NCBI RefSeq assembly: GCF_000011345.1
Contig: NC_004113.1
Span: forward strand, 1,116,001-1,180,000
Length of the DNA: 64,000 nucleotides
Direction of reading: 5' to 3'
Source of the DNA: Thermosynechococcus vestitus BP-1
GTDB lineage: Bacteria; Cyanobacteriota; Cyanobacteriia; Thermosynechococcales; Thermosynechococcaceae
Shown here: one piece after another, positions 43,080-45,090 of the stretch
Position numbering within the stretch: position 1 is the stretch's first letter
How the letters are laid out: the number at the start of each line of letters is the position of its first letter
Translations under genes and position numbers: made by a program
Notes under the pieces: generated by a model
Database searches by the model: none
Told to the model about the DNA's origin: nothing
What the model saw: only the letters and a program-made list of their open reading frames with translations

Positions 43080-45090
43080 GTGGAGTGCGACACGAAGCCG
43101 CTTAAGCTGACTGTCCCACTAGCCCAACAAGCTAGAATGGGACCGGTTATTCCCCCAGCTGTAGCCTAGGGAGGCATGCGTGACTGGCAACGGTCAGGTA
43201 TGAAGCCCTCCCGACAACGTAGCCCGAACCGTAAGGTTGGAGCTGAATCCGTGAGGAGGAAGCAACTTCACCAGCGTCAGGTGGTAGGGAGCTAGGCTTA
43301 AGGGTATGGTGAACGCAAGTGAAGTGACGTTAGAAGACCCGTTATCACATACAGGCCAAAGACGCTGACAGGCCTGAGCCAAAACGGCAAGCGGACAAGA
43401 TACAACGCTTCCACGTCGGTGTACGGGGATGTTGATCCGTCGGGGCATAGTCACCACCTAACCCCTCGTGTCAACTAAGCGGAACGTGGTAAGCCCGTAT
43501 CTTCGCCTTGAACATTCAAGGCAGGCAAACCGCAAGGAAAGCTGATGAGGGTGCGGGTAGAGGAGGCGGGAAAAAGCGAATGCTAGCCTGTAATGGGCTA
43601 GATAGGGATTGAGAATGTTGGCAGGACATTCAACATCATCCGACTCGAAAGAGGGCAGACTTCCCGCTGGTCCCCGATTACGGGAAAACCTACAGAACCT
43701 CCCTAATGGTGACAAAGCAAATGGCGGTGACCTTGAGTCACTGGTGCGGTCACCAACCTTACACACAAGGTAGAGAGGCTGTAGATGAGTATCGTAAAGG
43801 TTGTACATACAACCGGTTCCTCCTAAAAGAGGAGTCTTGGGGGGCTCGAGCCGGATGCGGGGAAACTTGCACGTCCGGTTCCTAGGGGGCTAGGGGGCAG
43901 TAATGCCCCCCCGCTACCCGACAAAGGCTTTCAGTTACCGCTTCTACCCAACGACCGAGCAGGAATCCCTGCTTCGGAGAACATTGGGCTGTGTTCGGTT
44001 GGTTTATAATCGAGCACTGGCAGCGAGAACAGAAGCCTGGTATGAACGAAAAGAGAGACTTGACTACGTTCAAACCTCTGCCTTGCTTACTCAGTGGAAG
44101 AAGCAAGATGACCTTCAGTTTTTGAATGAGGTTAGCTGTGTCCCCTTGCAGCAGGCATTGAGACATCTGCAATCTGCTTTCACTAACTTTTTTGCAGGTC
44201 GGGCAAAATATCCCAACTTCAAAAAGAAACGCAATGGCGGTAGCGCAGAATTCACCAAGTCTGCTTTTAGGTGGAAAGACGGAAAAGTATTCTTGGCAAA
44301 GTGCAACGAACCGCTGAATATTCCCTGGTCGAGACGGCTTCCAGATGGTGTTGAACCATCCACGGTGACCATCAGGCTTAACCCTGCTGGACAGTGGTAC
44401 ATCAATCTGAGGTTTGATGACCCCAGAGAGTTGACACTGCAGCCCGTCGACCCGTCGGTTGGTTTGGACGTAGGGATTAGCAGTCTCATTACCCTGAGTA
44501 CGGGGGAAAAGATTGCCAACCCCAAGCACTTTAACCGCTACTACAAACGACTCCGTAAGGCGCAGCGGTCTTTGAGTCGCAAACAAAAAGGCTCTCGCAA
44601 TTGGGATAAGGCGCGGTTGAAAGTTGCCAAGATTCACCAGAAAATCTCTGATTCCAGAAAAGACCATTTGCACCAGTTGACGACTCGATTGATACGTGAA
44701 AACCAAACGATCATAATCGAGTCGTTGGCTGTGAAGAATATGGTCAAGAACCGTCAGCTTGCCCGATCCATCAGTGATGCTGGATGGGGTGAACTGGTAC
44801 GGCAATTGGAATACAAGGCCCAGTGGTATGGTCGGACACTGGTGAAGATTGACCGATGGTTTCCCAGTTCTAAACGCTGTGGACAGTGTGGTCACATTGT
44901 TGAGCGGTTGCCATTGAGCGTCCGAGAATGGGACTGTCCTAAGTGTGGGGCGCACCATGACCGGGATATAAATGCCGCTGGGAATATTTTGGCCGTGGGA
45001 CACACGGTTACAGTCTGTGGAGCGGGTGTAAGACCTGATAGACATACGTCTGGAGGGCAACTGCGAAGAAGCAGAAAGTCTCAAAAGTGA
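43080..45090 (+). CDS. tnpB: TnpB gene split by a group II intron just after its GTG start
   Basis: Exon 1 is only GTG GA (43080-43084), with AAGGTGAGG acting as ribosome-binding site. Exon 2 runs 43923-45090. Joined, the protein begins MEKAFSYRFYPTTEQESLL and has about 391 residues. RuvC-I SVGLDVGISSLITLSTG, RuvC-II IIIESLAVKNMVKN, zinc ribbon CGQCGHIV and CPKCGAHHDRDINAAGNI are intact. Unspliced RNA could use the ATG at 43903, inside the intron 3' end, giving seven foreign N-terminal residues. It is about 35-40% similar in appearance to the other two TnpB copies and clearly a different subgroup. Confidence 0.88.
43085..43922 (+). mobile_element. ORF-less group IIB intron inside tnpB
   Basis: 838 bp from GTGCGACACG to CTACCCGAC. 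Domain V GAGCCGGATGCGGGGAAACT begins at 43848, followed by domain VI. It is a close relative of the inner intron at 32767 (one base different in length). Domain IV carries the same truncated RT-gene ends, joined by hairpin GGTTGT-ACAT-ACAACC at 43799-43814. Precise removal restores tnpB, so the ends are well supported. It has no maturase of its own. Confidence 0.93.

Follow-up and report, generated by a model that had tools for sequence, protein, structure and literature searches.

The closest described system is the intron population of T. elongatus, in which Mohr et al. (2010) report 28 introns, among them seven F3 copies that are identical to one another and three F4 copies, located in the insertion sequence ISEL1 (PMC2882425). 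According to the accessible text of that paper the three F4 introns lie at one ISEL1 site, and the F4 representative TeI3k was mobile in E. coli at 48 °C, inserting into a ligated-exon target at 1.9e-4 to 3.0e-2% in the seven intron-encoded protein (IEP) settings that were determined; an eighth setting was not determined there. Both the insertion sequence and this type of intron within it have thus been described before. A related case is RmInt1 of Sinorhizobium meliloti, for which the authors propose, in the accessible part of their paper, that poor splicing limits the host insertion sequence (PMC4238363). Self-splicing introns also occur with IS200/IS605 elements in the IStrons, such as CdISt1 (PMC4227781). 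The accessible text of PMC7923331 describes an IS200/IS605 element downstream of an intron-bearing array with no intron within tnpB, and an intron in tnpB is not described in the accessible text of PMC8987985. In the open-access literature no report was found of a group II intron together with TnpB in Thermosynechococcus, nor of ISEL1 in Thermosynechococcus beyond Mohr et al. (2010).

The locus considered here lies in a window of 64,000 nucleotides, the whole stretch of DNA that was analysed, which covers bases 1,116,001-1,180,000 of the single-contig genome (2,593,857 bases) of a thermophilic cyanobacterium. It contains an ISEL1-type element in which the start of tnpB is split by an ORF-less intron of the F4 type. 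The features are as follows.

42966..45130 (ends approximate), + strand: ISEL1-type IS200/IS605 element with tnpB split by the intron, from conserved ends and congener synteny
43067..43072, + strand: TATAAG where intron-free copies have TATAAT, 7 nt before the start codon; putative promoter box
43073..43076, + strand: IBS2 GTGA in exon 1, complementary to EBS2
43079..43084, + strand: IBS1 CGTGGA in exon 1, spanning the GTG start, complementary to EBS1
43080..43084, + strand: tnpB exon 1, GTG GA, from sequence, with the start at the same position in 19/19 intron-free copies
43085..43922, + strand: ORF-less group IIB intron of family F4, 838 nt, presumed to be TeI3k
43345..43348, + strand: EBS2 UCAC, covarying with IBS2 among intron families as judged by eye
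43410..43415, + strand: EBS1 UCCACG, covarying with IBS1 among intron families as judged by eye
43848..43881, + strand: domain V, from the RF00029 match and fold
43885..43922, + strand: domain VI, from the RF00029 match and fold, containing ATG 43903-43905 in a GC hairpin
43923..45090, + strand: tnpB exon 2, giving 390 aa together with exon 1
44969..45130, + strand: 3' tnpB/right-end stretch, likely omega RNA region, directly 3' of the intron in two tnpB-deleted derivatives

The intron begins with GTGCG at 43085 and closes with CTACCCGAC at 43922. Rfam places the domain I core (RF02012) at 43143-43292 with 119 bits against a cut-off of 34, and domains V-VI (RF00029) at 43846-43922 with 60.1 bits against a cut-off of 40. 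The predicted fold of domain VI leaves A43916 bulged and unpaired, and this base is likely the branch point. The longest plus-strand ORF inside the 838 nt is 59 aa, so that no intron-encoded protein is present. With the domain I core, domains V-VI, complementary EBS and IBS sequences and no IEP, the intron has the features of the bacterial group IIB F4/TeI3 type. At intron base 65 a domain I pair is lost solely in the tnpB copy among eight distinct aligned introns, a point against the explanation favoured below. The genome holds 38 group II intron matches, three of which share EBS1 with the tnpB intron. Among them, L004-L010 are seven copies of identical sequence and L001-L003, of which L001 is the tnpB intron, are three that closely resemble one another, which agrees with the F3 and F4 counts of Mohr et al. 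and is the basis on which we assign the names F3 and F4. The order of letters against position suggests that the tnpB intron is TeI3k; it may splice in the native cell. Within the same window a twintron at about 32139-35363, a kind described by Mohr et al. in the accessible text (PMC2882425), combines two group II intron 5' cores with two 3' ends, one intron lying within another according to the Rfam matches; its part from 33606 to 35285 presumably holds a reverse transcriptase ORF.

The intron interrupts codon 2 of tnpB, as GTG GA / A AAG GCT, with exon 2 opening as AAAGGCTTTC at 43923. Joining GTGGA to exon 2 gives a 390-aa ORF with the N-terminus (V/M)EKAFSYRFYPTTEQ, in which Pfam finds HTH_OrfB_IS605, OrfB_IS605 and Cas12f1-like_TNB; the product thus has the RuvC and zinc-finger parts of a TnpB. 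The putative D, E and D residues of TnpB were read by eye. The genome contains 20 full, near-identical tnpB copies, 19 without an intron, and these allow the start codon to be checked. In all 19 the start lies at the same position, exactly 5 nt before AAAGGC (ATG in 15, GTG in four), the second codon reads CAA (13 copies) or GAA (six), and the 390-codon frame is open. Congener copies L051 and L056 (G007) and L059 (G001) read ATG GAA at the same start, L059 being broken further on; this count covers those three loci in two genomes, L052 and L057 (G001) having been dropped for want of the start motif. Further tnpB matches, outside this count, occur elsewhere in G001 and in G006, G009 and G010. 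In the intron-bearing copy the frame is closed by a TGA two codons upstream of the GTG, so that exon 1 offers no in-frame start other than this GTG. An in-frame stop two codons upstream is found next to all three F4 introns and in 12 of the 19 intron-free copies; the other seven have no in-frame stop in the 11 codons examined, and four of these seven have an upstream ATG. In those four (L040, L041, L042 and L049) the in-frame ATG precedes the usual start by three codons and overlaps the TATAAT box. Because the start is the same in the 19 sister copies and in three congener copies, and because of the upstream stop, the GTG as native start is well supported by sequence comparison. The original prediction placed a group II intron two bases past this GTG and held that splicing restores an ordinary TnpB N-terminus. 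Both statements agree with the sequence and Rfam data, and the comparison with intron-free tnpB that might have revealed another native start gave the same one throughout.

The choice of this site may be understood from base pairing. EBS1 and IBS1 (UCCACG with CGUGGA) and EBS2 and IBS2 (UCAC with GUGA) pair fully, where the EBS positions come from an alignment of 16 intron copies, eight of them distinct, and the pairings were read by eye. In other families EBS1 UGCUUU goes with AAAGCA, or with AAGGCA through one G-U pair, and CCUAAU with AUUAGG, while EBS2 CUCC goes with GGAG, CUCA with UGAG and UCUU with AAGA; the fit is poorer in L011, L012 and L016. The genome has three occurrences of the 12-mer target GTGAGGCGTGGA, all of them adjoining an F4 intron. 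This 12-mer is found in none of the 19 intron-free ISEL1 copies, four of which have full IBS1 without full IBS2. A looser target, GTGANNCGTGGA, occurs five times, twice unoccupied, against seven occurrences of a reversed control pattern, so the looser motif is itself not rare. Since the 5' exon is nearly identical across the three F4 introns, it is uncertain that they represent three independent insertions. The site provides an example of an intron target overlapping a start codon.

Whether the intron can be removed would depend on where transcription begins. A TATAAT hexamer lies 6-7 nt before the start codon in all 19 intron-free copies. The congener box is TATAAT in L059 and TACAAT in L051 and L056, and among the F4 copies it is TATAAG in L001 and L002 and TATAAT in L003. 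Transcription driven from this box would start close to the start codon itself, leaving an exon 1 of about 5-6 nt from which IBS2 is missing. It is conceivable, if rather doubtful, that the own promoter of the intron-bearing copy yields such a near-leaderless RNA from about the GTG, which would splice poorly and leave this tnpB silent. The constancy of TATAAT in the 19 copies and in L059 speaks for it, together with the TACAAT and TATAAG variants in L051, L056 and the intron-bearing copy. However, transcription may read through from upstream, four intron-free copies have the in-frame ATG three codons upstream, and a consensus promoter scan lists no promoter at the intron-bearing tnpB or at L033 and L042, the two intron-free copies scanned. 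The result for L033 and L042 led us to regard silencing as somewhat less probable than before. Transcription start sites of T. elongatus by dRNA-seq were not found in the open-access literature. The ribosome binding site AAGGTGAGG of the original prediction has to be seen in the same light. It pairs with the anti-Shine-Dalgarno sequence at -8.5 kcal/mol, where the 19 intron-free copies range from +1.9 to -5.9 (16 at -2.5 or weaker and three at -5.9), but it also overlaps the position of the TATAAT-like box and the IBS2 of the intron. The site would be present only in RNA that begins further upstream than a box-driven transcript.

The fate of unspliced RNA was also considered. Its frame from the GTG ends after 29 codons. 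It was proposed earlier that an ATG at 43903 in domain VI could instead provide a second start on such RNA, giving a TnpB with the N-terminus MPPRY. This ATG is indeed in frame with exon 2 and would give a product of 395 aa opening with MPPRYPT; AGGGGG stands 5 nt upstream, and Mohr et al. raise a similar option for twintron reverse transcriptases in the accessible text (PMC2882425). The proposal is possible on these grounds but disfavoured by the comparison of introns. In 15 of 16 ORF-less copies compared, an ATG stands 20 nt before the 3' end of the intron, irrespective of the downstream sequence; in the single ORF-bearing intron examined (35280-35363) the distance is 21 nt. At 43903 the ATG and the G run are within a predicted 7-bp hairpin, GGGGGCA/UGCCCCC, although the 120-nt stretch folds only slightly better than shuffled sequences (z -1.49; 21 of 200 shuffles as good). 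Use as a second start is thus quite improbable, and on our reading the ATG would be a feature of the intron family, its frame at this site being a matter of chance with odds of one in three.

The copy numbers of the element bear on the question of what the intron does to TnpB. ISEL1 has 22 left ends in the genome, one of them truncated, and 22 right ends, made up of 20 full and two tnpB-deleted elements. The genome has 13 matches to Y1 transposase, and none is located within the intron-bearing copy, which therefore has no tnpA; conserved ends in many copies without an internal tnpA are as in the tnpB-only IS1341 type of IS200/IS605. Synteny with congeners ends at 42970 in the three loci compared. 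Next to the left end lies gene 42151-42969 (minus strand), which we take to be bile-acid-symporter-like. About 41 N-terminal residues are missing relative to five other genomes of the genus; synteny of the symporter ends at the ISEL1 left end, and the missing N-terminal part is located about 104 kb away. Simple recombination between two ISEL1 copies at the left end is not supported, as no ISEL1 was seen adjoining the distant N-terminus. Elsewhere in the window, a cobalamin riboswitch match of 58.6 bits is listed by Rfam at 7583-7727.

The tnpB intron was found in none of the 10 other genomes of the genus searched, five of which have tnpB matches, several being short fragments. A strict pattern joining domain V to YPTxEQ gave no match in genome_contigs, a set that may omit records near the source genome. 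A relaxed version gave five matches there, recovering also the site in the window, and none in viral_contigs; the relaxed version still needs exact letters, and domain V of another type or a different TnpB N-terminus would escape it. The five matches were rejected as false positives since they lie inside long ORFs, glycosyltransferases as judged by eye, and have no group II intron match at any of the five loci.

The original prediction went further in stating that self-splicing of the intron gates the RNA-guided nuclease. This is not supported beyond one copy, because 19 of 20 tnpB genes are intron-free with open 390-aa frames. Splicing could still set the TnpB output of this particular element and so limit the nuclease of its host element, as was proposed for RmInt1 in ISRm2011-2. 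The early stop in unspliced RNA and the RmInt1 precedent (PMC4238363, accessible part) are in keeping with such control, but gating one gene of 20 hardly alters TnpB, and the intron is confined to this genome among those of the genus searched; we consider it very unlikely. The 44969..45130 stretch is likely the guide-RNA region, by analogy with known IS200/IS605 biology. Splicing does not alter this end, and on all these grounds gating of TnpB in the cell as a whole is unlikely. The intron is probably a passenger in one tnpB copy and not a switch. The 19 empty sister copies offer a clean natural control for the effect of the intron on a single tnpB copy.

The other two F4 introns, both 850 nt, are found in elements of a different make-up. 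L002 (genome coordinates 2169568-2170417, plus strand) and L003 (1578164-1579013, minus strand) have the ISEL1 left end, GTGGA, the intron and the last 162 nt of the right end, with tnpB absent. The intron 3' end is followed directly by TAAATG, which starts at base 1047 of the 1208-base 3' part. The deletion therefore starts exactly at the intron 3' end, and it occurs in two of three intron-bearing elements against none of 19 intron-free ones; among the 22 right and 22 left ends in the genome no intron-free element with the same deletion was found. That the deletion edge coincides with the splice site is suggestive of a part played by the intron, either through intron-intron recombination or through retrohoming in which the 5' exon was copied; Mohr et al. 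propose recombination between introns for TeI4f/4g in the accessible text (PMC2882425). A more specific scheme, which we regard as improbable, is that tnpB was excised via intron reverse splicing, reverse transcription or intron-intron recombination, giving a non-autonomous element that keeps the guide RNA, is served by TnpA and TnpB in trans, and carries the retro-intron between sites. Alternatively, tnpB may have been deleted first and the intron inserted later, or the deletion may derive from microhomology, GGA being common to both edges. However, microhomology would leave TATAAATG after the intron where TAAATG is observed, and a further loss of 2 nt would be needed. The kinship of the three copies is conflicting, as 11 sites join L001 and L002 while a 12-bp duplication and the deletion join L002 and L003, which makes recombination among them likely. 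If intron activity did produce the deletion, a group II intron would have a route for trimming the transposon that hosts it down to the two ends and the guide RNA. Such derivatives were not found in print in the open-access literature searched.

In view of the above, the observed anatomy, start codon, pairing and copy numbers, together with the published mobility in E. coli, are very probably best explained by an F4 intron that is served in trans and forms a close to neutral insertion at a tnpB start; native splicing, the transcript start, trans action and neutrality enter this explanation as presumed elements. In this mechanism an ORF-less group IIB intron of family F4 would occupy a target overlapping the tnpB start in one of 20 full ISEL1 elements, recognising GTGA-GG-CGTGGA by EBS2 and EBS1. 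Both splicing and mobility would be provided in trans by reverse transcriptases of other introns in the genome. If the transcript begins far enough upstream, splicing would restore GTG GAA AAG GCT and an ordinary TnpB; if it does not, the intron-bearing copy would give no normal TnpB. The probable guide-RNA end lies downstream of the intron and would be unaffected, and the other 19 copies could supply TnpB. These intact copies and the unaffected end are the reason to consider the insertion close to neutral.

The locus can now be compared with the described systems. With the F4/ISEL1 introns of Mohr et al. it shares the kind of intron, the insertion sequence and the number of three copies; in the main text of that paper the words tnpB and transposase occur 0 times, and tnpB-deleted derivatives are not mentioned in the accessible text (PMC2882425). 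RmInt1 in ISRm2011-2 is alike in that the coding gene of an insertion sequence is interrupted and splicing is required for the product (PMC4238363, accessible part). However, RmInt1 is a class D (IIB3) intron within a transposase gene, whereas the tnpB intron is ORF-less, belongs to a IIB1 family and lies in an accessory nuclease gene. Control of the RmInt1 type also presupposes that the insertion sequence depends on the interrupted product and has no uninterrupted source of it; for tnpB, 19 intact copies are present at other sites of the genome. IStrons such as CdISt1 share the combination of a self-splicing intron and an IS200/IS605 element with a TnpB-type ORF B (PMC4227781). In CdISt1 a group I intron is fused to the element and splicing makes the whole insertion harmless. 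The present locus is not an IStron, since its intron belongs to group II and is nested within the element, which stays in the RNA when the intron is spliced out.
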